Position numbers and translations under genes: made by a program
IMG/VR virus record: IMGVR_UViG_3300036770_006237
Coordinates: 1-40,735 of that record
Length of the DNA stretch: 40,735 bases
Origin: a virus
Strand: one strand, 5' to 3'
Shown: in pieces, positions 13,745 to 39,582 of the stretch
Position numbering within the stretch: the first letter of the stretch is position 1
Layout: each line of letters begins with the position of its first letter
Notes under the pieces: model-generated
What the model saw: only the letters and a program-made list of their open reading frames with translations
The model's database searches: none
Told to the model about the DNA's origin: nothing

Positions 13745-13759
13745 AGTGAATTTTTTGAC

Positions 13760-13767
13760 ATTAAATA
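13760..13767 (+). promoter_or_regulatory. Possible late promoter ATTAAATA
   Basis: Six of eight bases match TATAAATA, seven bases before the ATG of the six-gene plus-strand operon. The leader would be about two bases. No better promoter is visible. Confidence 0.35.
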
Positions 13768-13774
13768 AGTAGTT

Positions 13775-15315: not shown

Positions 15316-15839
15316 AACACGAATTCAAAAATAAACCAGTATATTCCAATGACAATTTAATAAGATATATCCGATCGAACATGACTGCCGATGCCAGTTT
15401 GCTCGATCTGGGTTGCGGTCCCAAAGTCTACACTCAAGCAGTAAAAGATCTTTGTGTTCGACAAATCACAGTTGATGCATGGCCTGAAGTTGAGCCCGAT
15501 ATTGTGGCCGACTTAGAAACATTTGATGTTAAAACCATTGGATCGGTTGATTATATATTAATGATCGACTTCATTGAACATCTTGAAAAATCAGCCGGTC
15601 AACGATTAATTGATGATTGTAAAAAGATTGTCAATAAAAAAATATTTCTGTTGACACCATTGGAAGAAATTTGGGACGACAACCACAAAAATGTCAACGA
15701 CCCAAATCTATGGTGTTATGGTAATGTCTATGATTATCATAAAAGCCTTTGGTCAGCAGAAGATTTTGTGGGGTTCCACCCAGTTCAGTTGTATACCTTA
15801 GACAAGTATTTTGTAGGTCACTGGTCAAGACATGAATGA
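15312..15839 (+). CDS. SAM-dependent methyltransferase, class I
   Basis: A 175-residue protein with motif I ASLLDLGCGPKVYTQ (about residues 28-42), the acidic post-I residue at VDAWPE, and motif IV-like VDYILMIDFIEHLEK (about 79-93). This order is diagnostic of small class I methyltransferases such as those acting on sugars or on metabolites in O-antigen clusters. It overlaps the epimerase gene by eight bases. The target is probably a sugar hydroxyl on the glycan made here; a DNA target is less likely since there is no recognition domain or DPPY-like motif. Confidence 0.75.
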   Translation: MKHEFKNKPVYSNDNLIRYIRSNMTADASLLDLGCGPKVYTQAVKDLCVRQITVDAWPEVEPDIVADLETFDVKTIGSVDYILMIDFIEHLEKSAGQRLIDDCKKIVNKKIFLLTPLEEIWDDNHKNVNDPNLWCYGNVYDYHKSLWSAEDFVGFHPVQLYTLDKYFVGHWSRHE

Positions 15840-16926: not shown

Positions 16927-17912
16927 GTATATTTACACAATCAAGAATTTTAATTACCGGCGGAACTGGGTCATGGGGCAGAACATTAACTCGTTTATTG
17001 TTAGAAACTTACCCAGTCAAAGAAATTGTAATTTACAGTCGAGGAGAACTTCAACAAGTTTTAATGCAGCGAGAATTTAATTTTGATTCTCGCATCAAGT
17101 TTTGTATTGGTGATGTTCGAGATCGAAATGCATTGATCAGTGCTGCACAAGGAATTGACATAATATTTCATTTGGCAGCATTAAAACATGTGCCTATCTG
17201 TGAAGACCATCCACAGGAAGCAATTAAAACTAATATCACAGGAACTACCAATGTCATCGATGCTGCACTGATAAATCGAGTCAAAAAAGTCATAGATGTC
17301 AGCACAGACAAAGCGGTTGAACCATTGAACCTGTATGGTATGACTAAATCTGTGGGTGAGCGATTGATTTTGCAGGCCAATGATTTAAGCACCGACACAA
17401 AATTTATCTGTGTCCGTGGTGGTAATGTCATGGGATCCAATGGAAGTGTAATCCCGTTTTTTATTCAAGAGATTAAAAAAGGCGGACCAGTTAGACTCAC
17501 TGACAGTCGAATGACTAGATTTTTCTTGACTCTGGAACAAGCTATACAACTGTTATTCCGTGCCACTGAATGTGGTATAGGACGAGAAACATTTGTAATG
17601 AATATGCCCAGTTGTCGAATTGTTGATTTAATAGAAGTGTTGATGCAGAGTTATGGCCAAGTTCCGATCACAGAAATAGGTGCTAAACCTGGAGAGAAAA
17701 TACATGAAGTATTAATCAGTCGTCACGAAAGTTCATTAAGTAGACAACTCAACAATGACTATTACATAATTTTACCACAGAACAATAATCAAAAATTAAT
17801 CAACTTGTATTGTGATTTACCTTATATTCCCCACAGTGAATTCAGCAGCAATACTCAACTTATGAATCAATCACAAATACATCAAATGTTAAAACAAGGA
17901 AACTTTTTATGA
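16923..17912 (+). CDS. UDP-GlcNAc 4,6-dehydratase/epimerase (FnlA/WbvB/CapE-like)
   Basis: A 329-residue extended short-chain dehydrogenase. The Rossmann motif ILITGGTGSWG is at residues 10-20, the Y-x3-K catalytic pair at NLYGMTKSVGE (about 140), and DVRDRNAL plus HLAALKHVPICEDHP match the CapE/FnlA/PseB group rather than GalE. It converts UDP-GlcNAc to a 4-keto-6-deoxy-L-hexose with C5 (and often C3) inversion. The start at 16923 (ATGA with the upstream stop) is used; a longer reading from 16842 would overlap 85 bases of the epimerase gene. Confidence 0.88.
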   Translation: MSIFTQSRILITGGTGSWGRTLTRLLLETYPVKEIVIYSRGELQQVLMQREFNFDSRIKFCIGDVRDRNALISAAQGIDIIFHLAALKHVPICEDHPQEAIKTNITGTTNVIDAALINRVKKVIDVSTDKAVEPLNLYGMTKSVGERLILQANDLSTDTKFICVRGGNVMGSNGSVIPFFIQEIKKGGPVRLTDSRMTRFFLTLEQAIQLLFRATECGIGRETFVMNMPSCRIVDLIEVLMQSYGQVPITEIGAKPGEKIHEVLISRHESSLSRQLNNDYYIILPQNNNQKLINLYCDLPYIPHSEFSSNTQLMNQSQIHQMLKQGNFL

Positions 17913-18793
17913 AAGTGTTAGTATTAGGTGCCACTGGCATGGCCGGTCATATGATCACAAAATATCTCAAATTGCAAGGCTATCAAGTGCAAACCTCAGT
18001 TCGTCGGCCAACAAAATCACAATATGATAATCAAATTTTCAATGAAATAGTTGATAATGCAAAATTTTATCTTCAAGCCGATGATGATACCAGTGTAGAT
18101 TTGTTGACTGGGTCAATTGACGACGATGTCGATTATGTCATTAATTGTATCGGTTTACTGGTCAAAGATTGCCAAGATCGACCAGATTTGGCAACAAAAA
18201 TCAATGCTTGGTTCCCTCAATATCTAGCTTACCGATTACAGCGTCATCGAGCACAAATATTACACATCAGCACAGATTGTGTATTTGATGGAAGAAAAGG
18301 CAAGTATGTTGAGTCCGACGCCACTACTGAAAAAAATAATTATGGTCGGAGTAAAAGTCTGGGCGAAATCATTAACAATAAAGATTTGACTTTGAGATGC
18401 AGTATCATTGGTCCAGAAATAAAAAATGGCACAGGGTTAATGCATTGGTTTCAACATCAATCCGATAATATTGTTCAAGGTTGGACCAATGCATACTGGA
18501 ACGGTATCACTACATTGCAATTGGCCAAATGTCTCGATGGTTATATGCAAGACAATCAAAAAATAACTGGATTATATCATCTGGTTGACAACGATTGTTG
18601 TATCAGTAAATGTGATCTATTGTCTTTAATAAACACCATTTATGAAAGTAAAAAAACCATTGTACCTGTTTCTCTGTCTCAGCCCATTGACAAAACCATT
18701 ATTGACACTAGATTGTGTCGACCATGGTCAATTCCCAGTTTAGAAACACAACTCAAAGAATTACGGTTGTTTGACCCACTGTCGCATATGTGA
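17909..18793 (+). CDS. dTDP-4-dehydrorhamnose reductase-like (RmlD/WbvR-like)
   Basis: A 294-residue reductase. It has an N-terminal Rossmann motif VLVLGATGMAG, the RmlD signature ISTDCVFDGRKGKYVE, and the Y-x3-K pair in NNYGRSKSLGE. It should reduce the 4-keto group of the dehydratase product with NADPH. It lacks the C-terminal cupin domain (about 80 residues more) found in CapF/FnlB reductases of the L-FucNAc pathway, and is more like the RmlD-type WbvR of the UDP-L-QuiNAc route; so L-QuiNAc is my guess. Its last 33 bases overlap the convergent gene at 18761. Confidence 0.82.
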   Translation: MKVLVLGATGMAGHMITKYLKLQGYQVQTSVRRPTKSQYDNQIFNEIVDNAKFYLQADDDTSVDLLTGSIDDDVDYVINCIGLLVKDCQDRPDLATKINAWFPQYLAYRLQRHRAQILHISTDCVFDGRKGKYVESDATTEKNNYGRSKSLGEIINNKDLTLRCSIIGPEIKNGTGLMHWFQHQSDNIVQGWTNAYWNGITTLQLAKCLDGYMQDNQKITGLYHLVDNDCCISKCDLLSLINTIYESKKTIVPVSLSQPIDKTIIDTRLCRPWSIPSLETQLKELRLFDPLSHM

Positions 18794-19717
18794 CCAGCAT
18801 CGACTAGATTTTAAATCTTCAAAATTCCAATGACATTGTGATAATTGTTTTATCCATAAATCTCGGTCTGGCATCAATGGGTTTTCCAGTTTTGAAAAAT
18901 CTCGATTAACCATTGGTCCGGCTTGGCAATATCCTGGATCGTCGGTAATGAAAGCAGGGATTCCTTCGATGACAGATACTGAACTCGGTGTGCTGTTATG
19001 GCAAACCAATGCCCAGCAATTTTTTAAATCTTCTATAATAGGACGTTCTTGTGGACTGACAATTATTTTTTGTTTTTTTATCAATTTTTCGTATCGTGGA
19101 AAATCTTTCCAATTTCCCGGATGCCAACGAGCCACAATAGGTCGATCAGTATTATTTCTTATTTGTTGTATAGTATCAACTAACCAGGTCTCAAAGTTTA
19201 CACCACGCATACTCCATCCTTGGGGTCGTTGTAATGCCAATAAAATATGTGACCCAGTTGATCGCCATGGTGACATATCCATATTATAATCTTTTTTGAT
19301 ACGATTCCAATTTTGATCATCCGGGTGTTCATTACAATAGATACCGGTTTTAGGAAAAACACCATTGAAACTATATCTCAAATACCGATGTGGATTTAAT
19401 TTATTTTTATAGATAAAGACATTACTGTCTATGCTTAACCAATATTTTTTCAGTTTAGTTTGAGTATCAATTACCAGTTTTCTAACTTTATAGTGCGACA
19501 ATTTTGTTTTGTTGGGGTTGTCAGAAAATGCATTACCAATAATAGCACCAACATCGCAAGGATCATATTGTTGACTTTGTGTAGTTGATCCGTTATCTCC
19601 ATACCGTGACACTCCTTGAGCAAAGAAAGTCAATGCATCAATTTTTTCTTGACTGTTAATTTTGGCAGGCAAACTGCTCAAATAACTTTTAACAATCAAT
19701 GGTGTGTCTTTGTTCAT
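18761..19717 (-). CDS. GT-B-like glycosyltransferase (paralogue 2)
   Basis: A 318-residue protein. PIVARWHPGNWK and the C-terminal CHNSTPSSVSVIEGIPAFIT match the HN-S.....EGIPA nucleotide-binding signature shared with capsule transferases. The tail LWIKQLSQCHWNFEDL parallels paralogues at 12896 and 19689. It overlaps the upstream gene by 29 bases and the convergent reductase gene by 33. It is the last gene of a four-gene minus operon starting at 22236. A surface-glycan transferase role is inferred from the neighbours. Confidence 0.65.
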   Translation of the reverse strand: MNKDTPLIVKSYLSSLPAKINSQEKIDALTFFAQGVSRYGDNGSTTQSQQYDPCDVGAIIGNAFSDNPNKTKLSHYKVRKLVIDTQTKLKKYWLSIDSNVFIYKNKLNPHRYLRYSFNGVFPKTGIYCNEHPDDQNWNRIKKDYNMDMSPWRSTGSHILLALQRPQGWSMRGVNFETWLVDTIQQIRNNTDRPIVARWHPGNWKDFPRYEKLIKKQKIIVSPQERPIIEDLKNCWALVCHNSTPSSVSVIEGIPAFITDDPGYCQAGPMVNRDFSKLENPLMPDRDLWIKQLSQCHWNFEDLKSSRCWSHMRQWVKQP

Positions 19718-20777
19718 TCTCTTTGACCAATTCCCATGCTTGACCAGAAATCATCTCGTCGAGACTAAATTGACAATAAGCAATATGATTTAACCAAGAC
19801 TGAATAAGATCTTCACTGTAGCGTGTAGGAGATTCTATTTTACTAAGGTCATTGTCACATACTATACTAGCTGCGGTGGGCGCTAATGCAATTGCTGGTA
19901 TACCATAGGCCAATGCTTCGACTGCAGCAATACTGTTATAAGTTACAACACAAAAGATATCTTGATCGAATGATTTATAAATTGTATCATTGGTTCTTTC
20001 AGCTCGAGGTGCTTTTTCTCTTACTATGATCGGACGATCGGTATACTTTTTTAATTCAGAAATTGTATTATCTATCCATTGTTGTTTTTCAATACCATAA
20101 TACTTACAGGGTTTTTCACTTGGGGCCACTATCAATATTCGACTGCCCGGTCGACGCCATCCGTTATAATTTAAAAAACTATTCCAAGACACTAATTTTT
20201 TCCATCTGTCATCGGGCACAGACATTATTTTTTCGTGCTGCATGGAATTTTTAACTATTCTATGATAGATTTTTCTTCCAGTTCTGTTGTTAGGACTGGG
20301 GTAATTTCCCAAGTATCCAGTTTCGATAAAATAATAATCTCTATGTTGTTGCCTCATCCAATCAATGATTTTACCTGATGCAATACCCCTAACTAGTATA
20401 CTGCCTTGTGTATCATGTTTAATGCGATTGAAATCTTCATAGGGGACGAACTCGGCATTGGGATAAGCAGCCATAATCATAGCTGGATAATCTGAAAATT
20501 TTATTAACCGTTCATATCTTTCTTTTTTATCAACTATATGTTGTATAACTCGGCGATGTAATGCCATATCGCCCATCCTTTTTAGATTATATTTGCCCTC
20601 TTTAGTGGATATGTCTGGCGATTCCCATGTTGCTTCAATCTCGGACAAAATTTGTATATCATTGTATAATTTCAAAGCATCTGATACATTATGTTTTAGT
20701 GCACTGATCATAGATTGATGTTGTTGACGATATTCTTCGCCGGGCCATCGTTCAACTAAAGCAATTGGCAAATTCAT
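19689..20777 (-). CDS. GT-B-like glycosyltransferase (paralogue 3)
   Basis: A 362-residue protein. ILIVAPSEKPCKYYGIE and RPIIVREKAPR are the two GT-B-type strands, and TYNSIAAVEALAYGIPAIAL is the nucleotide-sugar binding loop. The end DLIQSWLNHIAYCQFSLDEM aligns by eye with the ends of paralogues 1 and 2. The ATG at 20777 is chosen (ATGA overlap with the upstream stop) over a TTG 21 bases earlier. It has about 40 more N-terminal residues than paralogue 2. Confidence 0.65.
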   Translation of the reverse strand: MNLPIALVERWPGEEYRQQHQSMISALKHNVSDALKLYNDIQILSEIEATWESPDISTKEGKYNLKRMGDMALHRRVIQHIVDKKERYERLIKFSDYPAMIMAAYPNAEFVPYEDFNRIKHDTQGSILVRGIASGKIIDWMRQQHRDYYFIETGYLGNYPSPNNRTGRKIYHRIVKNSMQHEKIMSVPDDRWKKLVSWNSFLNYNGWRRPGSRILIVAPSEKPCKYYGIEKQQWIDNTISELKKYTDRPIIVREKAPRAERTNDTIYKSFDQDIFCVVTYNSIAAVEALAYGIPAIALAPTAASIVCDNDLSKIESPTRYSEDLIQSWLNHIAYCQFSLDEMISGQAWELVKENEQRHTIDC

Positions 20778-21457
20778 TTTGATAAGTTTTGTTGACAATA
20801 ATTAGTAAAAATATATTCACGAAACCATTCATGACTTTGTGCTGAGTCTGCGTAGTCGTGAAAACAAGGAGTCCCTAAGGTAAAATGTAATAGTTTAGCT
20901 CGATGATTCGCTCCATATTCGTCAGGAAGCCAATTCCATTCTATAGGCAGCGAACCTATTTTTTCATCGTCTAGCCAGGCAAATCTATGTAAATGTGCAC
21001 CTGACGATTGTTGTATATATTGTGTTGTTAATTTTTGATTGTTAGGGCTTGCGCAATTCCATAAAATTACGCTGCTCCAATTTTTTCTTGGATAGTCATG
21101 ATTGGGGCTGCCCATATATTTTGTCGAAGAGCGTGTGGTATAATTATGCTTGACTACCATTACATCATAATGAGGATCACGTAATTCCCATAATTCGACT
21201 AAGTCGTCACGAAAAATCATATCCCCATCAACAAATATTGCCCACCCATTGTAATTCATTAACTCTGGAACTAAAAATCTACTATAGATAAAATGATTAC
21301 TGCCATCACTATGTGTTTCTCGATAGGAATTCAACAAGTTCAAAGCCAATGGATGTATTGAAACTGGTTGGCTAGAATTTCTAATTATGCTGTTGACACA
21401 CACATGAAAGGCCACTGCTTCCCTAGGATCATATCCGATAAAAACCGGTATAGTCAT
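20774..21457 (-). CDS. Glycosyltransferase, GT8-like with DGDMIF
   Basis: A 227-residue enzyme with a clean GT-A layout: VFIGYDPREAVAFHVCVNSI at the N-terminus, metal site GWAIFVDGDMIFRDDLVEL around residues 72-90, and a late H (LLHFT.G.P) that in GT8 enzymes binds manganese. Cytoplasmic, no membrane helix. ATGA overlaps at both ends tie it to the operon. It is the clearest transferase on the minus strand of the island. Confidence 0.8.
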   Translation of the reverse strand: MTIPVFIGYDPREAVAFHVCVNSIIRNSSQPVSIHPLALNLLNSYRETHSDGSNHFIYSRFLVPELMNYNGWAIFVDGDMIFRDDLVELWELRDPHYDVMVVKHNYTTRSSTKYMGSPNHDYPRKNWSSVILWNCASPNNQKLTTQYIQQSSGAHLHRFAWLDDEKIGSLPIEWNWLPDEYGANHRAKLLHFTLGTPCFHDYADSAQSHEWFREYIFTNYCQQNLSK

Positions 21458-22236
21458 TGGGATTGCCTTTCTATATCTTCTTCAACACATTCAAATCCAT
21501 ATTGTATTTCGATTATGTGCAATGGAGTTTCTTGTTCATTGGCCAATTGATGCCATTCGTTGAGACCAATCCAAGTATTTTCAAATATATCGAGTCGGTT
21601 TCTTATTTCAATATCAGTTGATCTGTTTATGGTATAAACTGTGGCACAACCTCGACTGACAAACCAAAATTCTTGTCGATGACGATGTCTTTGCATACTC
21701 AAGTAATGACCTGGTTCAACCACTAATTCTTTGACTTTAACTGTTCTATCATAGGATTGTAGTATGCGATAATATCCCCAAGGTCGAATAGTTTTTGGAT
21801 ATCGCCACTGTTCCAAAATTGTCGATGATGAATTAATTTTTTGTTGCCCACCAACCCCAAATTCAAATTTTAAATTTTCGAATCCTGGTTGATTTAGCAA
21901 TCTCATCTCAGGGATATTGTCAATAGTTCTATCACCACCATTGACAAAAATGATTTGGTCATCGGGGTGAAGTTGTTTGACTTGTTTTATAGCATTGCAG
22001 GCCGAGCCATCACTGTCGTCGAATTTAACAGTATAGTCCACCATTTTTAAATTTTGTATTATGTCAAGGCGTTCTTGTTGAGTCATGAATGGCTGACCTT
22101 TTTTCTTGGCCAACCATTCATCACTGTTGACACCAATATACAATATATCGCCCAACGATTTTGCTGCTTTAAAATAAGCGATATGACCACTGTGAACAGG
22201 GTCATATCCTCCAGTTGCTAAAACAATTTTTTTCAT
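21454..22236 (-). CDS. Nucleotidyltransferase-cupin fusion (RfaE2-like + mannose-6-P isomerase-like)
   Basis: A 260-residue two-domain protein. Residues 1-140 are a cytidylyltransferase-like fold with VLATGGYDPVHSGHI (HxGH motif) and the closing INSSSTIL motif, as in RfaE C-terminal or TagD enzymes. Residues 145-250 are a type II mannose-6-phosphate isomerase cupin: PWGYYRILQSY, VEPGHYLSMQRHRHRQEFW (metal-binding His) and WIGLNEWHQLAN. Fusion suggests both activation and isomerisation or sensing of one sugar phosphate. A late-type promoter box CATAAATA lies five bases before the ATG, so the operon 22236-18761 is probably a late one with leaderless mRNA. Confidence 0.8.
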   Translation of the reverse strand: MKKIVLATGGYDPVHSGHIAYFKAAKSLGDILYIGVNSDEWLAKKKGQPFMTQQERLDIIQNLKMVDYTVKFDDSDGSACNAIKQVKQLHPDDQIIFVNGGDRTIDNIPEMRLLNQPGFENLKFEFGVGGQQKINSSSTILEQWRYPKTIRPWGYYRILQSYDRTVKVKELVVEPGHYLSMQRHRHRQEFWFVSRGCATVYTINRSTDIEIRNRLDIFENTWIGLNEWHQLANEQETPLHIIEIQYGFECVEEDIERQSQ

Positions 22237-26638: not shown

Positions 26639-26646
26639 TATTTATC
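26639..26646 (-). promoter_or_regulatory. Late-type promoter GATAAATA
   Basis: Seven of eight bases match the late consensus on the minus strand, seven bases before the ATG at 26631 and overlapping the terminase stop codon. Confidence 0.45.
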
Positions 26647-28213
26647 TAGACATGGAAATAAACGGCATAGGTTCGATGATCATGTCATCGTGATCTCTGA
26701 GATGTTGATCAACATCATTATAGAATGTCTGTAGAGTTTGTAACATACGAACTACTAGTATAGTGGCCATTACCAGATCGTCTTTTTCTCCAGGTTTGGC
26801 AGCATACCCCACTCCTGAGGATACAAATGTTTTTAGTTCACCTATTAATGCTGCACTATGGCATTTCATTTTGTTGGTTTCTATTAGGTTTTTCAGTTTG
26901 GCACAGGCAGTTAACTTGGTTTTGGCTGTGGTATTATAGCCTTTTCTAAACCTGCGACCATTTGTTACCACAGATGTATCTGAAAGAAAATATCCTTTGA
27001 TATTTTCTTCACCAAGCTCGGCAATACTGATTAGTGCTGCTTCTCCGATGGTGTTATTTTCTAAACTGTAGTAGATACTGTTTTCGTCTTTGGTAATTTC
27101 GTAAAGATGGTTGACAATGTCTTTTAAAATTCTAACCTGTTCAGGGATCGTAGTTTTATTGTGTGTCCATTCACCGATTTGATCGGTGGTCTTGGCGTTA
27201 AATATCTGTATAGCAGCCGGATCACCACCGGTACCCAAGCTGGGATCCAAACCTACAACATAAATTTGTCCTGGTTGCGGCGGACAAAACCATCTTACCT
27301 GACCGGTTTTATACAAGTGATTCGAGGGAGTCAAGTCCAGCAGTTTGGCTGGTGCGATCAATGTTTCTTCATCGATAATGAATTCGCAATTATGCTCTCT
27401 TCTGAATCTGTCTTCGCCCAGTGCTGCTCTTTGTTGATCTGCCCAGGTTTGATCTCGCTCAGGATGTTCCCACCAAAAACTTCTAAATGCACGAAACCCG
27501 TTGATGCCCACATCTGTTGGATTACCATACTCATCGATGCATTTATTGGCACCCTTCCAGAGCAAAGCAAATTGATCTTCATCACTGTTTGGTGTACTTG
27601 TGATAATGGCTTTACCACCGGTGGCCAAAGTAGGACTAATACTGGTCCAGAACTCTTTGGCTATTGTGGGCCTTACATAAGAAAATTCATCGGCATACAG
27701 TAAACTGATACTCATACCCCGACCGGTAGTTTCTGTTGTGGTTGCACTGACAATTCTACTGCCATTTTCAAAATCTATACTGCCTTTATTATAACTGGTT
27801 ACCCCTGCACGAATATGATCAGGGCAGAGTTCATAAGCATATCTAATTCTCTGCATGATTTCTTGTGCGCCTGTAAACTTGTGAGCAGCTACTAAAATTG
27901 TTGAATCTGGCACAAACATTGCATACCACAATAGATAACCAGCTGCACTGGTAGTTTTTCCTGTTTGTCTTGGTAACATAGATATACTGAACCTATATCT
28001 ATGATAAGTATCGATTAATTTTTTTTGATATTCAAATGGATGATACAACATTTTTCCTTTGGTGGGATGTTGTATATAAAAGAAATTATTTAAAAAATAT
28101 TCAGGGCCTTCGCTGGGATCAGCACAAGATAAAAATTCATCTAGTTGTTTATCAGTGAAACTTTGTCGTCTGTGAGGTGCCTTGACTAAGACTTCTTCGG
28201 ATGTTTTTGCCAT
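26642..28213 (-). CDS. 17: Terminase large subunit, T4 gp17 family
   Basis: A 523-residue packaging motor. ATPase domain: Walker A LPRQTGKTT (residues 80-88), Walker B ISLLYADEFSYV (169-180) with catalytic Glu, and motif III-like AIITSTP (about 208). Nuclease domain: VVGLDPSLGTGGD (about 318), a conserved EN/NT...E region, and a final acidic KDDLVMATILVVRM motif near residue 480. Length is below T4 gp17 (610) but usual for marine relatives. It is separated from the small terminase subunit gene by about 6.6 kb of structural and head genes, an unusual order. A long ORF on the other strand is a shadow. Confidence 0.93.
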   Translation of the reverse strand: MAKTSEEVLVKAPHRRQSFTDKQLDEFLSCADPSEGPEYFLNNFFYIQHPTKGKMLYHPFEYQKKLIDTYHRYRFSISMLPRQTGKTTSAAGYLLWYAMFVPDSTILVAAHKFTGAQEIMQRIRYAYELCPDHIRAGVTSYNKGSIDFENGSRIVSATTTETTGRGMSISLLYADEFSYVRPTIAKEFWTSISPTLATGGKAIITSTPNSDEDQFALLWKGANKCIDEYGNPTDVGINGFRAFRSFWWEHPERDQTWADQQRAALGEDRFRREHNCEFIIDEETLIAPAKLLDLTPSNHLYKTGQVRWFCPPQPGQIYVVGLDPSLGTGGDPAAIQIFNAKTTDQIGEWTHNKTTIPEQVRILKDIVNHLYEITKDENSIYYSLENNTIGEAALISIAELGEENIKGYFLSDTSVVTNGRRFRKGYNTTAKTKLTACAKLKNLIETNKMKCHSAALIGELKTFVSSGVGYAAKPGEKDDLVMATILVVRMLQTLQTFYNDVDQHLRDHDDMIIEPMPFISMSR

Positions 28214-28234: not shown

Positions 28235-28681
28235 TTAGCACCAACTTGTTTTAGCTTCACCATAATATTCTCTGGCAAAGCCTCGTTGAATCAACTGCTG
28301 ACGAAGACTTTGTCCATTGATTATGACATCTCCCAATACCCGACCACCAAACTTATCCCAGCTCATTAATGCAACCTGAAATGTTTTTCCTTGTGCTATA
28401 AATTGCTTGGTAAACTCAGTGGCAGCGGCTCCTCGTTGTGCTTCTGACGGGCACTTGGCTCTATGACCTTTTTCAGGTGTGTCTACGCCAAATACACGTA
28501 TTGACAATTCTTTTTTCAATGGGTCGGGTAAAAAAGGTGCTTGAAATGCCACAGTGTCTCCATCAATGACACGAGTAATAACCGCATCATAAACTACACT
28601 GGGTTTTTGTTTCTGAGCAGTTGACAATGTTGGTAAAGTTGATAACCACACAGACAATGCAATTGTAAAAATTTTCTTCAT
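28235..28681 (-). CDS. Exported thermonuclease-like protein (SNase homologue)
   Basis: A 148-residue staphylococcal-nuclease-fold enzyme. Residues 1-22 are a signal peptide (MKKIFTIALSVWLSTLPTLS followed by TA). VIDGDTVAF, IRVFGVDTPEKG (Arg and Glu catalytic pair, Asp metal ligands) and DKFGGRVLGDV (second catalytic Arg) are complete, and QRGFAREYYGEAK closes the fold. It ought to cut DNA and RNA with calcium. Two Cys (CPSEAQ and the C-terminal SWC) could form a disulfide, fitting a periplasmic protein. AGGA lies nine bases before the ATG. Next to the large terminase, but packaging should be cytoplasmic, so its role is probably outside the cytoplasm. Confidence 0.9.
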   Translation of the reverse strand: MKKIFTIALSVWLSTLPTLSTAQKQKPSVVYDAVITRVIDGDTVAFQAPFLPDPLKKELSIRVFGVDTPEKGHRAKCPSEAQRGAAATEFTKQFIAQGKTFQVALMSWDKFGGRVLGDVIINGQSLRQQLIQRGFAREYYGEAKTSWC

Positions 28682-28691
28682 TTTATTATTC

Positions 28692-29999
28692 CTAATTATT
28701 TGAAAGTTCTACCCAACCCAAACTATAAAGAACATCAGCATTATTACTGTTTGACACTGTGGCCAAAGTCAATACATCACTATTGCCTGATATATCTCTT
28801 CCAAGTTGTAATCTTCTTCTAATTTCATCACTTAATTGAACTGTGGCTCTACTGGCATATAGTGCCGAATATACCACTGTACCACCAGATATAGTATTTG
28901 CTGCAGTATCGGTTTGAACAACTGAATTAGACACATTGGCAAAAGAAGCGTTGCCCAATGTGGCATTTAATATTAACTGTATTTCACCATAGGCCACATC
29001 AACGGTTAAAAAATCAATGCTGCTGATTGTAACTACTGCATCAGGATATGCAGAATTTAACCTAATAGAAGCCAGCGGCTCTAATGTATCTGCCGATCCC
29101 ATAACTTTTTCTTGAGATCCATTACCAACATATCTCACAGGAGTCAATGGATTATATCCACCTTCACTGATCACTGTGGAACAAATTTGTAACATTGTTC
29201 CGCTGCCACCAGTTGATGTAATTTCATATCTACAATTTAAGGTAGCAGTGGTCATATAAACATCGGTTTCAATATTGGCATGGTTAAATACATGACAAAT
29301 ATAGAAAATACCATTGACAACAAATCCTGTTCTAACAGATCCCACACCCAACCATTCAATATCTAGCCAAAATATTTGAACCTTAGTTGGATCTAGTGTG
29401 ATTCCCGAAGCACCTGTGCCGTTTAACGGATCTTGATTCCAGTCAGATTGTGCTATTCTATTTTCTTGCACCGAGCCCGACACTGAACTACGTAAAACTA
29501 AATATAAATCGTTTCCGTCGGCTTCAAAATATATTCCGTTATTGGCAGTAAAATAACCCACACGTTGTCGTAGATCTGGATCCAGTGTGGCCATTGCAAA
29601 AGTGTTCAATACTTGTAGACTTTTGCCCGGTTGATAAAGTTGTACAGTTTTACATTGTCTAATCACTTCGTCGCCCGAACCGCTGACTGTCAATGAAAAA
29701 TTTGAACCATTGGCATTATATGTCAATGCACCCGAACCACTGGTTGCAGTAGCAAACAATTCTCCTGGAATATATCTATTTTGACTATCAAATAATGTAG
29801 TAGGTGTTGATACACGCATTCTACCAAAAGCATCGCTGCCTGTATTACCATTGACAATGGTATTTCCACTGCCAGTGGATCCTGTGCTGACTCTAATAAT
29901 AGGCTGTCCGGCACTGTTATAATCCATTGCCTGATGTAGATCATTTAATTGATAATTAGGAAATGGGTGTTGATAATTTGTTGGACCTTGAATACTCAT
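28692..29999 (-). CDS. Virion structural protein with FGRMRVSTP...TLFDSQ motif
   Basis: A 435-residue Ser/Thr/Gly/Asn-rich, beta-strand-rich protein. Near residue 60, DAFGRMRVSTPTTLFDSQ matches a conserved motif I recall in virion proteins of several large phages (and in some giant-virus proteins). The remainder looks like repeated jelly-roll-type or beta-sandwich domains, as in head fibres or decoration proteins. The start overlaps the upstream gene by ATGA, so it belongs to the same late operon as the capsid-leader cluster. Function in the particle not known. Confidence 0.7.
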   Translation of the reverse strand: MSIQGPTNYQHPFPNYQLNDLHQAMDYNSAGQPIIRVSTGSTGSGNTIVNGNTGSDAFGRMRVSTPTTLFDSQNRYIPGELFATATSGSGALTYNANGSNFSLTVSGSGDEVIRQCKTVQLYQPGKSLQVLNTFAMATLDPDLRQRVGYFTANNGIYFEADGNDLYLVLRSSVSGSVQENRIAQSDWNQDPLNGTGASGITLDPTKVQIFWLDIEWLGVGSVRTGFVVNGIFYICHVFNHANIETDVYMTTATLNCRYEITSTGGSGTMLQICSTVISEGGYNPLTPVRYVGNGSQEKVMGSADTLEPLASIRLNSAYPDAVVTISSIDFLTVDVAYGEIQLILNATLGNASFANVSNSVVQTDTAANTISGGTVVYSALYASRATVQLSDEIRRRLQLGRDISGNSDVLTLATVSNSNNADVLYSLGWVELSNN

Positions 30000-30379
30000 C
30001 TTGGATAACCTCGAAAACCTTTCAATGGGCTAACAGTGTTGACTATGTTGGGTTCATGACTTTGGCTGGATCCAATGGCATGTTTGCCGCCCGGTGTGTC
30101 AGACATTGACAATGCTTGATCAATGATTTCAATGTCTTGATTATCAAAAGTAGATATCACGGCGTGTTGCCCGAATGCTCCTTCGCTGCTGAAATCAGAA
30201 TCGAAATTTTGATCTTGGCTTTTAGTAGCTCTTGCACGAGCAATAGCCACCCCGAATCTATAAGTCTTGTATGGATCTTGACCAGTCAATGCAGGTATTA
30301 TAAAAGTATTTTTCATAGGGTCAGATGAGAGATCAGATAAATGCCCCAATTGTTCTGTGATGAATTCACGTGCTCTCAT
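29996..30379 (-). CDS. Capsid-leader protein, MRAREFITE family (paralogue A)
   Basis: A 127-residue protein beginning MRAREFITEQ, close to the T4 capsid-targeting leader (T4 internal proteins start MKTYQEFIAE), with I-T-E as a matching gp21-type cleavage site. It shares ALTGQDPYKTYRFGVAIA and the C-terminal SPLKGFRGYPR with paralogue B at 31062. No catalytic motif. Likely a protein packaged inside the prohead. ATGA overlaps link it to both neighbours. Confidence 0.7.
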   Translation of the reverse strand: MRAREFITEQLGHLSDLSSDPMKNTFIIPALTGQDPYKTYRFGVAIARARATKSQDQNFDSDFSSEGAFGQHAVISTFDNQDIEIIDQALSMSDTPGGKHAIGSSQSHEPNIVNTVSPLKGFRGYPR

Positions 30380-31065
30380 TGAGATTTATTCCCCCAATTT
30401 CGGGCACCTTTTTTACGGCACTGCACTAATGCACCTGACGCATATGCACTGGGCCAAACTTTGTATCGACTTTTGACTTTATGATAGCAAGCATCTTGTT
30501 TTTCTGCCAGCAATTGATCTTCATAGGCAGGCCCGCCACATTCCGGGCAAGTTTGTCTTTCTTCTGCCATGCCCTGATATGATTCTTTGGTTTTTACATT
30601 TATTGCTGAACCACTGCGTTCTGGATTTGGATCTTCCCGACGTTTACGACTGGCTGCTGTTTTACGACCTTTTTTACCCAGTGCATGAGCCTTGGCTTGA
30701 GGTAAACATTTGGGTTTACCTTCGCTGTCATCGCCCCTGGCGCAATCTCCACGAATTTTTCCGTCGGGGCCAAATCTCACCCATTTTTCTCGAAACCATT
30801 TGCGAAGATTTTCCAATATATATTGATCGTAATCTTCTAATAATTTTTTTGATCGTTGATCAAGCTCTGCATATTTTTGATCTAATTCGGCTCGTTGTTG
30901 AGCTTGGCGATCTAGGAAATCCTGCATTCTTTTTGCAGCAGCATCCATGTCATAACCAGCTCGTTTCATACCAGCGCGAAATTTTTCTGCGGCAGTTCGT
31001 CGTGGGCGATATGGGCCTGTCAGTTTGACTTCTTGTAAGTCGGTAGTAAAATCACTGAGTCTCAT
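30376..31065 (-). CDS. Capsid-leader protein with conserved C-terminal modules
   Basis: A 229-residue basic protein. The start MRLSDFTTDLQE contains an L-Q-E cleavage candidate. Residues 30-85 are a predicted coiled coil (DRQAQQRAELDQKYAELDQ). A module at about 88-150 (KWFREKWVRFGPDGKIRGD ... KAHALGKKGRKTAA) and a final module CYHKVKSRYKVWPSAYASGA with two C-x2-C-like Cys pairs (CPECGG) are widespread in T4-like aquatic phages. It is rich in Lys/Arg, fitting a DNA-contacting internal head protein. Confidence 0.7.
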   Translation of the reverse strand: MRLSDFTTDLQEVKLTGPYRPRRTAAEKFRAGMKRAGYDMDAAAKRMQDFLDRQAQQRAELDQKYAELDQRSKKLLEDYDQYILENLRKWFREKWVRFGPDGKIRGDCARGDDSEGKPKCLPQAKAHALGKKGRKTAASRKRREDPNPERSGSAINVKTKESYQGMAEERQTCPECGGPAYEDQLLAEKQDACYHKVKSRYKVWPSAYASGALVQCRKKGARNWGNKSQ

Positions 31066-31427
31066 CTGGGATATCCTCGAAATCCTTTGACAGGGCTGGT
31101 TTTGTTGGTATCAGGATTTTCCATACTACCGGGTTCGATCAATGTTTTGGCTTTTAGTTTTAGTTTTTTAAGTGCGGCTAAAATTTTATCTCGCTCGACA
31201 TCAGTATAGGCTCCAAAATATGCTTGATCGTTGATCCAGCTGGCAGAATCCAATTTTGCCAGTGCATCGGTATCGGCTCCCATGAGTATACCGGCTCTGT
31301 AAAGATCATAATATTTGTTGATGTCTTGGCCAGTCAACGCACCAGGATTGGCATAGTCATAATGAGGATGTAATTTACCATCCATGGAATCATATCGGCC
31401 TTCGGTGATGAATTCTCGTGCTCTCAT
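31062..31427 (-). CDS. Capsid-leader protein, MRAREFITE family (paralogue B)
   Basis: A 121-residue protein with the same N-terminal MRAREFITE as paralogue A, plus GALTGQDINKYYDLYRAGIL and C-terminal SPVKGFRGYPR. The middle section differs. The two copies flank the 30376 gene, pointing to a duplication followed by divergence. Predicted to be cleaved after I-T-E by the prohead protease. Confidence 0.7.
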   Translation of the reverse strand: MRAREFITEGRYDSMDGKLHPHYDYANPGALTGQDINKYYDLYRAGILMGADTDALAKLDSASWINDQAYFGAYTDVERDKILAALKKLKLKAKTLIEPGSMENPDTNKTSPVKGFRGYPR

Positions 31428-31434
31428 TGATATA

Positions 31435-32094
31435 TCACCATGCTCGACATGACCAGTACCGAGCTTTGGTACGAGGTCCAGGATTATCGCAATTGTGTCT
31501 GGCGCGAAAACTACGTCGACGTGCTGGGTTGGATTTTTTTATTTTCATGGTCTTTTGTCCAGCTTTTTTTGCACTGGTACCGCCATGACCAAAATTGACT
31601 TTTTTGACATTGCCAGTTTTGGGATCACGCACGTAGACCTTGAATTTTTTAGAATCGCCTCGCATGGGTTTACCCAAGGGCACTTTACGACCCTGATACT
31701 CGGCTTCTTTTAAATCAGCATCCAGTGGTTTTAAATGTTTTAGTTTTGGATCAGTGTATATTGGACGTTCGGGTGCAGTGTAATCAATGGATTTGTTGTC
31801 ATCGCCGGGCAATCCAGCACCGGGTTTGATATCGGGTTCCTGTGTGTCATAATCAACTTCTGCATTGCCATCATCTTGATCGTCGGGTTTATCTTCTTCA
31901 AGAAAATTCCAACTTTCCAGTATTGCCCAAATTTGTTCATTGCTGTCTAACAGTAGGTTGCCTTGCTCATCTTGATCAAGCACATAAGTTTCTAACAATG
32001 TGAGATCTTCTAATTCAATGGCAAAATCATCCCCCACGGTGGGGGTATTCATCCATTGTTCGGCTTCTAGTAGATAGCTTTTGAAATTTTTCAT
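31435..32094 (-). CDS. Capsid-leader protein with RARHNC module
   Basis: A 219-residue protein. The start MKNFKSYLLEAE follows the T4 leader pattern (M-K-x-(F/Y)-x-x-(F/Y)-(L/I)-x-E). Residues 40-105 are acidic. From about residue 130 a basic conserved module follows: PLGKPMRGDSKKFKVYVRD, VKKVNFGHGG and RRRSFRARHNCDNPGPRT with a terminal ARYWSC. This C-terminal module is a common unannotated block in T4-like aquatic phages. It has two Cys in NC...SC. Probably packaged into or bound to the head. Confidence 0.7.
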   Translation of the reverse strand: MKNFKSYLLEAEQWMNTPTVGDDFAIELEDLTLLETYVLDQDEQGNLLLDSNEQIWAILESWNFLEEDKPDDQDDGNAEVDYDTQEPDIKPGAGLPGDDNKSIDYTAPERPIYTDPKLKHLKPLDADLKEAEYQGRKVPLGKPMRGDSKKFKVYVRDPKTGNVKKVNFGHGGTSAKKAGQKTMKIKKSNPARRRSFRARHNCDNPGPRTKARYWSCRAW

Positions 32095-32100
32095 TGATGT

Positions 32101-34185
32101 TTACCCTAGCATTTTTTTGATGTAGTCAAGATCAGTGCTTTCGGACATTTGACGATCAAGTTGACTGGCTATCACCGGAACTGTGGTTTGTCCAGTAGAT
32201 TTGGGTCTATTCAATCCGCCGCTATACTGCAATGAATCTTGATTGTATTCAGTGTTTGTGGGCCAGTCTGGGCTGTTTTCGTCTACTATCTCTGCACAAC
32301 CACAGGGCTCTTGGCCACAAGTTGGGCAACTGTGATCTTCGTGGTCATGATGTCCTTCTATACCAGCCAGACTCAACAATTGTGCTAGACGAACTGCGTC
32401 ATCTCCGGTGGCATTAACGCTGATAGATTTATCTATTTCGCCTGTGTCGCTGGTGCTTTGTGTCACAGTGATATTCATGCTTTCGGATATCATTTGCTCT
32501 AGTTCTCTATTCCAGCTGTCATAGATACCTTTGCCAAATGACACAGATGATTTGCCTTTGGCTTTTTTTGGTTCTGCCGTGTCAGCCACTGCTACACTGC
32601 CACTGGTAGTGGTTTCTTTGACTTTTTTTGGTAGACCTTTGTGTTTGGTGCTGGCAAATTTTTCTAGTTCTTTTTCGGGCATTTTGGCCATTTCTGCACT
32701 GGCTGTTCCTGCCTGAGGTTTTTTACCAGATTTCCGTGCTGCCAAAGCGATTCCAGCTGCTTGCTGTTGTGACCGACTGACTGCTTTTTCAGTTACTGGT
32801 TCCATGTCACTGGATTTTTGACTTTTCATGTAGTCACGTGCTGTATCAATGTAGTCCAATGCCTTGGTGATTTTGGATTGCACCCACTCAGGTAAATTCT
32901 CGTCGGCTCGTAAAATACCACGTAGTTCTTTGGCCGCATCCATGACAGTTCGTAATTGATCATGCGCCATGTCGCCTTCTCGATCGTATTCGCCGCGATC
33001 AACGATGTCAATCATGTCATCTTGTTCTCGAACCTTTTTTGGTCGACCGCGTTGTGGTGCTTTTTTACCGGGTTCTGCATCGCCAATCTTGTGCACAGTT
33101 TTTGGACCTTTCCATTTGGGTATATCTACTGTGCCAAATGGTGCATTGTAAGTGTCTCGTGCTGCAGCCGGTCGACCGCGTTTTTTACCACTGCCTTTGT
33201 CATCACCGTCTTTGGTGCGCTTTTTGGCCGGTGATTCATCTTCATCGTCGTCACCTTGATATTCAGTGCCATAATTACCGTGATGTCGGACCCCTTGATC
33301 TGTTCTTTCGACTCGTCCTTCGTTGACGGGATAAGTTCGACCGTCAACTTCGAATTCTTTTTGTCCAGTGGCGCGAGCTTGAGCAAGTGCTCCAGAAAAT
33401 TCATTGCCTTCGCCCATTTCATCCTCTGTCATTCCTTGTTCGCCTTGGGCTTTCTCAGCGGCGTTAATTTTCCTCCGCAGATCTTGAATAGGACCATTCC
33501 ATAAATCTCTGGCTTGGCGCTCGCTGTCACTTAAATTTTGTTCTCTATCGGCATATTGGTAACTACTGCCACCTAGTGATTTGAACTTTCTCATTAATTC
33601 TTCGTATTGAGCTCGAAGTTCAGGAAGTGCAGCAATATCCGCGCTGTAATCACGTGGGGCGCTTTCTGGCTTACGAGGTGCAGGACCTCTTCTAAATGAT
33701 TTGCCCATGCCGCTTAACATGGCAGCAAATTCGTCTCCTAATTCTTTGGAGCCTTCCGCCACACCTTGCTCTGATACTTTACCAGCAGGTACTCCACCTT
33801 TTAACTTGATTACACTCTTTGCACCGTGTCCGGCTGCGATTCTTTTGGCATCAGCATCGTCTTTTGCAACAAACTTCTTTACTCGTCCGTTGTGTAGCAT
33901 CATTTCATATTGCCCTTCGTTTAAGGAGCCTTCCGCCACACTTTGCTCGCCTAGTTTCTTACCAGCAGCAGCGGCTTTTTGAAAACGCTCTTTGCCGTAT
34001 TTTTTACGGCCAATAGCAGCAGCCACAGCTTCGGGATTTTCAGCACTGCCACCTTTTTTGATCGCAGCCACAGTTTTATCAAAGCCCATGTATTTTTCAT
34101 CAACTTGTTGTTGACTTTCGTTGAGTATGGGTTTGTTTTGATCTAGATCGGCTAGACGTTTGTTGATATCGTAAAAAAATGTCAT
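32101..34185 (-). CDS. Large modular internal-head-like protein with two AT-hooks
   Basis: A 694-residue low-complexity, highly charged protein. Repeated EQ(S/G)VAEGS sits at two places (codons at 33925-33948 and 33748-33771, 24-base direct repeats with one difference). Two RGRP cores (KKRGRPAA and PQRGRPKK) are AT-hook motifs that bind the minor groove of AT-rich DNA. Helical modules (AAAIGRKKYGKERFQKAAAA; KALDYIDTARDYMK) alternate with disordered linkers. A Cys/His cluster HSCPTCGQEPCGC occurs near residue 630. ILNE, SLNE and ISES give several L/I-x-E sites for prohead protease. Likely a processed internal or scaffold-associated head protein. Confidence 0.7.
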   Translation of the reverse strand: MTFFYDINKRLADLDQNKPILNESQQQVDEKYMGFDKTVAAIKKGGSAENPEAVAAAIGRKKYGKERFQKAAAAGKKLGEQSVAEGSLNEGQYEMMLHNGRVKKFVAKDDADAKRIAAGHGAKSVIKLKGGVPAGKVSEQGVAEGSKELGDEFAAMLSGMGKSFRRGPAPRKPESAPRDYSADIAALPELRAQYEELMRKFKSLGGSSYQYADREQNLSDSERQARDLWNGPIQDLRRKINAAEKAQGEQGMTEDEMGEGNEFSGALAQARATGQKEFEVDGRTYPVNEGRVERTDQGVRHHGNYGTEYQGDDDEDESPAKKRTKDGDDKGSGKKRGRPAAARDTYNAPFGTVDIPKWKGPKTVHKIGDAEPGKKAPQRGRPKKVREQDDMIDIVDRGEYDREGDMAHDQLRTVMDAAKELRGILRADENLPEWVQSKITKALDYIDTARDYMKSQKSSDMEPVTEKAVSRSQQQAAGIALAARKSGKKPQAGTASAEMAKMPEKELEKFASTKHKGLPKKVKETTTSGSVAVADTAEPKKAKGKSSVSFGKGIYDSWNRELEQMISESMNITVTQSTSDTGEIDKSISVNATGDDAVRLAQLLSLAGIEGHHDHEDHSCPTCGQEPCGCAEIVDENSPDWPTNTEYNQDSLQYSGGLNRPKSTGQTTVPVIASQLDRQMSESTDLDYIKKMLG
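33748..33948. repeat. Two 24-base direct repeats coding EQ(G/S)VAEGS
   Basis: Plus-strand GGAGCCTTCCGCCACAC followed by (C/T)TTGCTC at 33748-33771 and 33925-33948. They differ at one base and are GC-rich compared with the surrounding gene. Confidence 0.75.
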
Positions 34186-34799
34186 GATGTTATCCTTTGA
34201 GGTTGTGCACCAGTGGCTGGTCTTGCTGGCAATTTGATATTGGAAATAGGACTGCGTGTGCCTTGTGGCAAACTGTTAGTGGTTTGGGCCGCTGGGGTTT
34301 TACCACCAGCCACTGTGAAATCACTGCGATAAGAATTTTTTAATACTGCATGATCATGTGGTTCAGCACTATAATCACGCTTGAGTTCATCTTGCTGCGC
34401 ATTATTGGCCGGATAGTCAGTGTCGCTGAGCAAGTCACGGTTTTCGCTGTTGATGTCCTCGACTTCACGATTCATACTGTCATCGTATTTCAAATCCAAC
34501 ATACGCACACGACTGGGATTAATACCCAATATTTGTGCCAGTTGTTGTATCTGTGGCTCGATGGCCGGATATCTAAAACTGACATCCACAGAAGTCACTG
34601 TTTGATTCTGTTCATTGGGAAAGTCTTTCAACGTGGTCATGACAGGAGTGGTTTTGGGCTTGCTCATTTTGGCAATATCGAACTGTGCCAGTTTTGTTTC
34701 TAATTGATTGAAAAAACTGTCGTCGATATCACCAACCACTTTGATTCTATAATCGTATGTTCGTTGACTTTCGGCTAGATAATGCTGAAATGTTTTCAT
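34182..34799 (-). CDS. Capsid-leader protein conserved in T4-like aquatic phages
   Basis: A 205-residue protein whose start MKTFQHYLAE differs only conservatively from T4 internal-protein leader MKTYQEFIAE. Residues 15-105 are a folded ferredoxin-like domain (YDYRIKVVGDIDDSF ... DVSFRYPAIEPQIQQLAQIL). I recall close relatives in marine T4-like phages without an assigned function. The C-terminal 100 residues are disordered. AGGA lies before the ATG and a late-like AATAAATA box at 34819-34826 precedes it, so this gene probably opens the 34799-28692 operon. Confidence 0.75.
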   Translation of the reverse strand: MKTFQHYLAESQRTYDYRIKVVGDIDDSFFNQLETKLAQFDIAKMSKPKTTPVMTTLKDFPNEQNQTVTSVDVSFRYPAIEPQIQQLAQILGINPSRVRMLDLKYDDSMNREVEDINSENRDLLSDTDYPANNAQQDELKRDYSAEPHDHAVLKNSYRSDFTVAGGKTPAAQTTNSLPQGTRSPISNIKLPARPATGAQPQRITS

Positions 34800-34818: not shown

Positions 34819-34826
34819 TATTTATT
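34819..34826 (-). promoter_or_regulatory. Late-type promoter AATAAATA
   Basis: Seven of eight bases match the late consensus on the minus strand, 19 bases before the ATG at 34799, with AGGA between. It overlaps the end of the small terminase gene. Confidence 0.45.
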
Positions 34827-35307
34827 CTTTTTTAGAATTTTGCTTTCTGTCGGCTAATAACCTATCCAGTAATTCGTTTCTGCTGAGAACCTGACCTTGC
34901 CCCACTGGCAAATTATCTTGAGATTCTGGTGCTTGCTGATCGAGTCGAGCTTTTTTTAATTGTAATTCAACTACACGTAATTTTTTGTTGAGTTTTGCTG
35001 TTTTGGCATTTATAGCATGTCCTAACATATTACTGGCCACTGAAAAAATTTCTCCAGCAAATCGACTATCAACATTAAACCCTAGATCCATTAAATCTTG
35101 AAACTTGTCTTTGGCCATATCTGCCAACTCATCCAGCTCTTGGTCACTGTGATCAAGACCAACCACTGTAGGCAATGCTTGATCAATTTTGTCAATGGCA
35201 GCGTCAATGTCTGTTATTAGAGATTTCGATTCGTTGACTTGATGTTGAACAATTTGTTTTTTATCTTCATCTGGAAGATTGAATAATTCTATAAGTTGGT
35301 CTGTCAT
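34822..35307 (-). CDS. 16: Terminase small subunit, gp16-like
   Basis: A 161-residue helical protein, length like T4 gp16 (164). The stretch DKFQDLMDLGFNVDSRFAGE followed by AKTAKLNKKLRVVELQLKKA is the pattern I associate with small terminases of T4-like aquatic phages: central coiled coil and basic end. It recognises DNA and regulates gp17. The ATG at 35307 is chosen (longer reading from 35346 would pass through a late promoter). The late box GATAAATA is five bases before the ATG. Confidence 0.7.
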   Translation of the reverse strand: MTDQLIELFNLPDEDKKQIVQHQVNESKSLITDIDAAIDKIDQALPTVVGLDHSDQELDELADMAKDKFQDLMDLGFNVDSRFAGEIFSVASNMLGHAINAKTAKLNKKLRVVELQLKKARLDQQAPESQDNLPVGQGQVLSRNELLDRLLADRKQNSKKE

Positions 35308-38049: not shown

Positions 38050-39582
38050 ATGTCTATACAATGTCAAATATGTCAAGAAGTTTTTGCCAAAATCATACCA
38101 TGGCAACATCTAAAACAACATAATTTATCCAGTTCAGAATATAAAAAACAATTCGGAACACTTTATAGTGAAGAAACATTGGCATTGTTCAAAGCGAGAA
38201 CTCCACATAACAAAGGCAAAAAAATTTTAGATAATGAACATCTGGAAAAAATCAATCGAGCTATTAAAAAAAGAGAGCAAAAATATAATTCTGGAGAACT
38301 GCAAAGATATAGTAATGTGCTGTCAGACGAAACACGAAAAAAAATAAGTCTAGGTGTCAAAAAGTATGCCGAACTCAATGAGCTAGAGTTACAGTCTAGA
38401 GCCAAAAAAGCACAACAAACAAAAAAACGCAATGGACTTAAAGGCCCTATGACCGGCAAAAAACACAGCGAGAATACTAAAGAAAAACTTCGACAAGTTC
38501 TTCAACAAAACAACGAAAGAAAAAAATTAGCCAGCTGGCAAAAAATATCTAGGTCAGCAGACCAGGCCAACTTGAAAATTTTAGATTGTCATGGTGATTC
38601 ATTGAATTTAGAATGCCGAACCTGTCAGAGTCAATTTCAATTTACTAAACAATACTTTAATACAGACAAATTTAGATCAAATTTGTGCCCAACATGTTTT
38701 CCTCTTGTCAAGAAAAAAACCAGTGTGGGAGAACAAGAACTATTTAAATTTATTCAGTCACTGAACATTGACTGTTATGCTAACTATAGATCAGATTACC
38801 ACGGACTGGAAATAGATGTTTTTGTGCCCTCAAAAAATATAGGATTCGAGTTCAACGGATTATACTGGCATTCTGAATCTGTTTTTTTAAAAAATAATAA
38901 AAATCCCAAAAGTGATTATGAAAAGTATCTTTATTTTAAAGACCGAGGTATACAACTTATACAAATATATGAAGATGAATGGGCAGACCGACAACATATT
39001 GTAAAAAGTCGAATTCAACATATTCTCGGACGAACTGAAAATAAAATTTATGCTAGACAATGTCAAGTCAAATTGATCGATTCTACAACTGCCAGCAAAT
39101 TTTTCAACGAAACACACATTATGGGCAACGGAAGAAGTAATTATAGGCTGGGCTTGTTTTATCACAATAAATTAATTTCAGCTATGAGTTTTTCAAAAAA
39201 TAATTTGTCAAGAAAAATTCAAGGGTGGGAGTTGAATAGGTTTTCTTCACTATGCGATGTATCTATTATAGGTGCTGCTAGTAAACTATTTAAAACTTTT
39301 GTTAAAGATATACAGCCAGATCAGGTTGTAAGTTATTCGGACAATAGATGGAGTTTGGGAAATTTATATCATTCATTGGGTTTTGATTTTGTCAGTGCAG
39401 GCACACCGAACTATTGGTATTTTTTACCTAATCAATCAAGAATACATAGATTCAATCTAAGAAAGAATCAATTCGATGACCCAGATATGTCCGAAGTTGA
39501 AAATCGTTTGTGTCAGGGCTATAATAGAATATGGGATTCTGGCAGCACTAAATGGATATGGTCAAACAAAAAGGGAGTATAA
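38050..39582 (+). CDS. Free-standing homing endonuclease, Vsr-like (EDxHD)
   Basis: A 510-residue endonuclease. Residues 5-35 are a C2H2-type finger (CQICQEVFAKIIPWQHLKQH). A NUMOD3-like repeat TGKKHSENTKEKL (about 136-148) binds DNA. A second C-x2-C pair occurs at LECRTCQ and LCPTC. From about 225 the Vsr/PD-(D/E)xK-like core follows: SVGEQELFKFIQSL, GLEIDVFVPSKNIGFEFNGL followed by YWHSE, and IQLIQIYEDEW. The C-terminal half has a GNAT-like GRSNYRLGLFYHNKLISAMSF region. It sits alone on the plus strand between tube and sheath genes, the usual site type for phage homing genes. No intron splice junctions visible. Confidence 0.85.
   Translation: MSIQCQICQEVFAKIIPWQHLKQHNLSSSEYKKQFGTLYSEETLALFKARTPHNKGKKILDNEHLEKINRAIKKREQKYNSGELQRYSNVLSDETRKKISLGVKKYAELNELELQSRAKKAQQTKKRNGLKGPMTGKKHSENTKEKLRQVLQQNNERKKLASWQKISRSADQANLKILDCHGDSLNLECRTCQSQFQFTKQYFNTDKFRSNLCPTCFPLVKKKTSVGEQELFKFIQSLNIDCYANYRSDYHGLEIDVFVPSKNIGFEFNGLYWHSESVFLKNNKNPKSDYEKYLYFKDRGIQLIQIYEDEWADRQHIVKSRIQHILGRTENKIYARQCQVKLIDSTTASKFFNETHIMGNGRSNYRLGLFYHNKLISAMSFSKNNLSRKIQGWELNRFSSLCDVSIIGAASKLFKTFVKDIQPDQVVSYSDNRWSLGNLYHSLGFDFVSAGTPNYWYFLPNQSRIHRFNLRKNQFDDPDMSEVENRLCQGYNRIWDSGSTKWIWSNKKGV

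Follow-up and report, generated by a model that had tools for sequence, protein, structure and literature searches.

A terminase-adjacent gene block of a T4-like jumbo phage probably encodes internal head proteins with capsid-targeting leaders

To our knowledge, only a handful of phage T4 proteins are known to be loaded into the head and delivered by a short N-terminal leader, and we know of nothing reported on proteins that enter the host with the DNA of uncultured jumbo phages. In T4 IPIII, amber-suppressor substitutions traced targeting chiefly to leader residues 4 and 7 and processing to residues 8 and 10; in T4 the replacement of E10 with Asp stopped cutting but not targeting, and leader fusions have been used to ask whether the leader suffices to carry a foreign protein into the head (PMC9026906). 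In the giant phages phiKZ and SPN3US, the prohead protease also cuts after Glu, and the packaged proteins are thought to be ejected (PMC5694885).

The window analyzed here is a 40,735-base IMG/VR record of a T4-like phage that encodes tail tube genes, the terminase gp17, and gp32-like and UvsX-like proteins. No DNA-level likeness to known phages was found. The window terminase has many relatives among viral contigs, some on 300-350 kb records, and by gp17 the closest isolates belong to the PA5oct group of Pseudomonas jumbo phages (52%). The window is a fragment, and gp21, gp22 and gp23 are absent from it. As originally predicted, six ORFs are present between 29996 and 34799, all on the minus strand, tightly packed and running in one direction (Table 1; genes are named by their lower coordinate, and their start codons are predicted). 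The leader of 34182 was said to share six of ten positions with T4 MKTYQEFIAE, and this count is correct when checked against the T4 ipII/ipIII start read here (ipI starts MKTFKEFTSTTTPVSTITE/A; slashes mark cut positions, known or predicted).

Table 1. Features of the leader-gene block and its flanks in the window, and mini leader proteins of related phages.
Feature	Location	Strand	Basis or remark
Terminase large subunit gp17 (synteny anchor)	26642..28213	-	Sequence match to relatives
Virion structural protein, phrog_1645, without leader, neighbour of the block	28692..29999	-	phrog_1645 E=2e-102
MRA-type leader protein, 127 aa, paralogue of 31062	29996..30379	-	
Predicted leader MRAREFITE of 29996	30353..30379	-	
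Basic protein 30376, 229 aa, with diverged leader MRLSDFTTDLQE and domains in common with cyanophage T4-GC119	30376..31065	-	
MRA-type leader protein, 121 aa, paralogue of 29996	31062..31427	-	
Predicted leader MRAREFITE of 31062	31401..31427	-	78 distinct MRA-type homologues
Leader protein 2 (31435), 219 aa; C-terminal domain phrog_7595, common to pelagiphages	31435..32094	-	
Predicted capsid-targeting leader MKNFKSYLLE of 31435	32065..32094	-	Homologues MKTFKDYLAE, MKSFQEYLAE, MKTLRDYITE, others
Multidomain protein 32101, 694 aa, DUF3008 domain (PF11450), long-type leader ending ILNE23	32101..34185	-	
Predicted long-type leader of 32101, MTFFYDINKRLADLDQNKPILNE, codons 1-23	34117..34185	-	Homologue conservation
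Leader protein 1 (34182), 205 aa	34182..34799	-	ORF and 32 distinct homologues
Predicted capsid-targeting leader MKTFQHYLAE of 34182, codons 1-10, predicted cut after E10	34770..34799	-	
Gene upstream of the block, phrog_16202, homologue of PA5oct gp283	34822..35307	-	Candidate gp16 by position
Mini leader proteins with the NASAGxTSSGSIAT motif of their own capsid protein and a basic tail	L123 (G001:270700-270906), L093 (G002:62030-62230), L137 (G005:186603-186821)		
Further mini leader proteins with the NASAGxTSSGSIAT motif and a basic tail	L194, L213, L222		

The block resembles the T4 internal proteins IPI, IPII, IPIII and Alt in leader length, residue pattern and terminal L/I-x-E (PMC9026906). 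As in T4, the proteins are small and have unrelated bodies, and in relatives some of the cargo is ADP-ribosyltransferase-like. Unlike in T4, where such genes lie near e/57B, the block genes adjoin the terminase, their protein bodies have no significant similarity to IPI-III, a second leader type of nine residues (MRAxEFIxE) dominates, and several tagged genes stand in arrays. Glu, the predicted cut residue of the block leaders, is shared with phiKZ and SPN3US; the head propeptides of those phages, in contrast, are mostly longer than 100 residues and not T4 leader-like (PMC5694885).

Several other features of the window were recorded. Between the leader cluster and gp17, positions 28235-28681 encode a protein that is thermonuclease-like and seems to have a signal peptide; in other phages its place is taken by a small, secreted-looking protein of another kind. 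Sugar-nucleotide and glycosyltransferase-like genes, partly on the plus strand, occupy 12195-22236 amid replication and structural genes, and an opposite-strand, endonuclease-like-looking ORF (38050-39582, plus strand) is inserted between the tail sheath and tail tube genes. The Gln-rich protein at 545-1426 (minus strand) starts with MQVHEVTTQSLNEG, possibly a further leader, and had no homologue among the fetched loci.

The leaders in the block are real. We fixed the pattern M[KR]x(2-4)[FY][ILVMF]xE and predicted the genes of G001, G002 and G005, three large relatives (~320-350 kb) that were read over their whole length. Across the window and these three genomes, the pattern matched 22 of 1,207 gene starts versus 1 of 5,657 internal methionines. 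Four of the 46 gene starts in the window matched, all of them within the block. Over all four sequences, the stretch bounded by gp17 and the gene upstream of 34182 had matches at 12 of 35 genes, compared with 10 of 1,172 elsewhere (Fisher p=2.4e-14). Shuffled N-termini scored with a looser pattern gave the same answer. The leaders ending in L/I-x-E that had been proposed for 31435, 31062 and 29996 were confirmed by this analysis as better than chance. Applied to T4, the fixed pattern returned exactly three genes: ipII, ipIII and 61.1. A run of genes at G005:158973-164073 starts MKI[TNK][DQ][VIF]... (MKITDVIKE, MKINQIIHE, MKIKDFQTE) and is possibly a third leader type.

Among the 32 distinct homologues of 34182, K2, F4, Y7, L8 and E10 were fixed or nearly so (entropy <=0.2 bits), and positions 3, 5, 6 and 9 were variable (~2 bits). 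Most homologues of 31435 follow the same pattern of targeting and processing residues. The codons of the fixed leader residues vary synonymously, so the constraint acts on the protein. The AF2 model of 34182 predicts a leader helix at residues 4-11, followed by beta-alpha-beta units, with a ferredoxin-like domain and a disordered C-terminus; confidence of the AF2 models was modest (pLDDT 68-69), and the sole matches among solved structures were ferredoxin folds like that of ribosomal protein S6, with marginal scores. Ip7, an "internal protein" of phage MX01, was considered as a structural relative of 34182 and set aside, the predicted-structure match (E=5e-3) being too weak to use. The profile phrog_14802 ("virion structural protein") was matched by 20 of 29 members of the 34182 family (best E=1.5e-8), with the window protein itself below threshold. 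The internal head protein profile phrog_2667 gave no whole-protein match: 34182 reached E=0.016 and two of the 29 family members <=0.1, with the matched part limited to the leader and the first 50 residues.

PA5oct gp282, which is a homologue of 34182 (8e-10; 31% over 103 aa) at the equivalent gene position, is annotated as a virion protein by an ESI-MS/MS note in its record; the same note is given for PA5oct gp278, the homologue of window gene 25204. Unlike 34182, gp282 has a leader without a Glu to cut: in gp282 (MKSFRDYYDAS) and Phosso 408 (MKNFYEYLSSV), F4 and Y7 are kept and E10 is lost. Cleavage is therefore not universal in the family, and since E10-to-Asp blocks cutting alone in T4, the loss of E10 in these two proteins fits targeting without cutting. 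In the homologue from Agrobacterium phage Atu_ph07, gp113 (L278 3001-3756), an ATG 87 bases upstream of the annotated start (locus 3088) restores the conserved leader MKTLQDYLTE/S, suggesting that the annotated start is 87 bases too late.

The two MRA-type proteins, 31062 and 29996, are 28% identical and both end in SP[LV]KGFRGYPR; as paralogues, they are not independent evidence. Across 78 distinct family members, E9 is present in 74, and the other four have a four-residue insertion after which the leader still ends in KINE, NLKE, KITE or VLSE. This retention of I/L-x-E parallels T4 IPI, whose longer leader ends in TITE. The residues just past the leader are among the most variable of the family, and the nine-residue leader has no direct counterpart of T4 position 4. 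MRA-type proteins had no match in isolated phages, PHROGs or Foldseek.

The remaining two block proteins depart from the canonical form. The N-terminus of the 32101 family is conserved and longer than canonical leaders (M[ST]FFY[DN]LNK...), and [LIM]xE falls within residues 11-45 in all 34 homologues with an M[STDN]xxx start, where 12 would be expected. The original prediction had pointed to L/I-x-E sites in 32101 (ILNE, SLNE); the conserved long leader ending in ILNE23 stands, while the internal sites occur at shuffle expectation (six sites in the protein versus 5.0 expected). Per-protein L/I-x-E counts were rejected as evidence because 32101 is near expectation, and its QGVAEG-type repeats were dropped as a multiplied cleavage site because relatives have them once or twice per genome. 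In 30376 the leader is diverged (Table 1); the sole full neighbour homologue, in the nearest relative (L001), begins MKFYEFVIE/N. The 30376 protein is strongly basic (net +17). Two of its domains match cyanophage protein T4-GC119, which is annotated as structural and in cyanophages lies just after gp16, a corresponding gene neighbourhood, and an internal YILE/N site of 30376 lies ahead of the first shared domain. Unlike 30376, the cyanophage protein is one long multidomain protein whose N-terminus has no T4-type leader.

The enzyme of a T4-like system and a further predicted substrate were both found in relatives. An S77 (gp21) prohead protease is present in seven of seven relatives, and their gp23 has a short propeptide ending in YLKE, a predicted cut, and then NASAGSTxSGNIAT. 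The same genomes encode small proteins in which the leader Glu is followed by NASAGGTSSGSIAT, NASVGATSSGSVAT or NASAGATCAGSIAP. In the form EFIAE/NASAGGTSSGSIAT, the Glu is placed as in gp23 YLKE/NASAG, and since NASAG-type residues follow the Glu in both, the mini-proteins copy gp23 past its predicted cut. PA5oct gp23 reads FLVE/NASAGATQAGNIAT, and the PA5oct virion protein gp281 contains VEE/TASAGASSAGGIAS.

A similar arrangement is seen in T4 itself. The gp61.1 protein (NC_000866.4 18966-19130; L319, L310) has 54 residues, MKTFKEFIKE/DMVAGDSGGNPENISIGTTSGAVVNKGP and a lysine-rich tail. Its 28 residues past E10 align ungapped and in register with the mature gp23 arm (AEIGGDHGYNATNIAAGQTSGAVTQIGP), with a score of 69; none of 20,000 shuffles exceeded 48, and the next-best T4 protein scored 39. 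At a permissive threshold, homologues were detected in 1,441 phage records, and a few bear a capsid protein annotation. The 61.1 homologue of Vibrio phage nt-1 reads TTGAVTNPGP where the phage's own gp23 reads TSGAVTNIGP. Our literature search found no paper giving gp61.1 a function and mentions of it only in gene tables. These alignments suggest that T4 gp61.1 carries a capsid leader and that its body, from the predicted cut site onward, mimics the N-terminal arm of mature gp23.

A scan of viral contigs for MRAxEFIxE returned at least 120 matches. The 171 unique leader-bearing proteins in the fetched loci formed 23 clusters by body similarity, none detectably alike. Domain matches of this cargo ranged from weak to clear and included GNAT acetyltransferase (7e-8), amidoligase_2 (1e-6, on MRAQEFEPKKQLDE) and the ADP-ribosyltransferase-like ART-PolyVal (4e-6, below its cut-off). 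Tagged genes often adjoin one another, for example four consecutive ones at G001:266855-270148. A second conserved array (G001:262218-272032, G002:55503-63360, G005:179785-187913) combines tagged proteins and a mini leader protein with a very large protein, whose SDIDLHLVV motif is nucleotidyltransferase-like, and an apparently Dps/ferritin-like protein of 146 residues. Of the small contigs on which the leader precedes diverse cargo, several of them fragments, the majority had no gp23 or S77 match. The sampled ones carry T4-type DNA polymerase, clamp loader and ligase, which speaks against an origin in non-T4 phages, and the small contigs look like fragments of T4-like genomes.

We consider it probable that this T4-like jumbo phage makes internal head proteins from the block, targeted by the leader and cut by a gp21-type protease. 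The leader would form a short helix at the N-terminus, through which the precursor docks in the prohead's scaffold core, with F4 and Y7 as targeting residues in MK-type leaders and F6 in MRA-type leaders. The active prohead protease (gp21, family S77) would then cut after the Glu that ends the leader, freeing the mature protein, with loss of the leader, and the mature proteins would be packed with the DNA and probably exit with it at infection. We infer docking, cutting and packaging of these particular proteins from comparison with T4 and relatives; packaging and cleavage are likely, and injection with the DNA is plausible by analogy with T4. The original prediction for all six proteins is partly supported: comparative evidence for targeting to the capsid and cleavage of gp21 type is good for the four canonical leaders (29996, 31062, 31435 and 34182), reasonable for 32101 and weak for 30376, with its diverged leader, although the domains of 30376 match the cyanophage structural protein.

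Other readings of the leaders were considered. The proteins could be confined to the prohead core, where after targeting and cutting they would serve as scaffold or DNA condensers with no delivery to the host. Members without a recognisable enzyme domain and the strongly basic charge of 30376 speak for this, and T4 has core proteins of such kind in gp67 and gp68 (PMC9026906). The GNAT acetyltransferase, ADP-ribosyltransferase-like and amidoligase domains of leader-bearing relatives suit delivery better, though they are not evidence on the six window proteins, and we regard a core-only role as a tentative possibility, appreciably less probable than our preferred reading. The leaders might instead be docking peptides that help to assemble the neck or portal vertex, on structural proteins that stay in the particle. 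The genes do lie between neck/tail genes and the terminase, near head-completion genes, and the missing cleavage Glu of PA5oct gp282 and Phosso 408 is expected of a permanent structural part. This is improbable, however, because the same leader occurs far from the locus on many unrelated proteins, enzymes included, all 32 close homologues of 34182 keep the Glu, and in the mini-proteins this residue coincides with the predicted capsid-protein cut.

Chance likeness combined with gene-family descent, by which amphipathic N-termini happen to hold L/I-x-E, is strongly disfavoured and we give it very little credence. L/I-x-E is short, the internal sites of 32101 are no more frequent than in shuffles, and two of the leaders belong to paralogues. 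Against this stand the excess of matches at gene starts over internal methionines, the shuffled N-termini, the retention of I/L-x-E across insertions, and the presence of the leader on 23 clusters without detectable similarity.

The recurrence of the leader on many unrelated proteins of related phages means that it may mark proteins delivered into bacteria. We put at about even the broader proposal that, in aquatic T4-like jumbo phages, it is a portable "load into head and cut" tag at the base of a large, fast-changing delivered set (at least 23 unlike clusters, among them GNAT, ADP-ribosyltransferase-like and amidoligase proteins). Within this set, one class of tagged proteins would mimic the mature N-terminal arm of the phage's own gp23, with gp61.1 as its unrecognised member in T4. 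The leader gives a testable role for gp61.1, which is unannotated and has homologues in more than 1,400 phage records. As the leader can be read from sequence against a background of ~1 in 5,000, it yields a checkable list of candidate delivered proteins.
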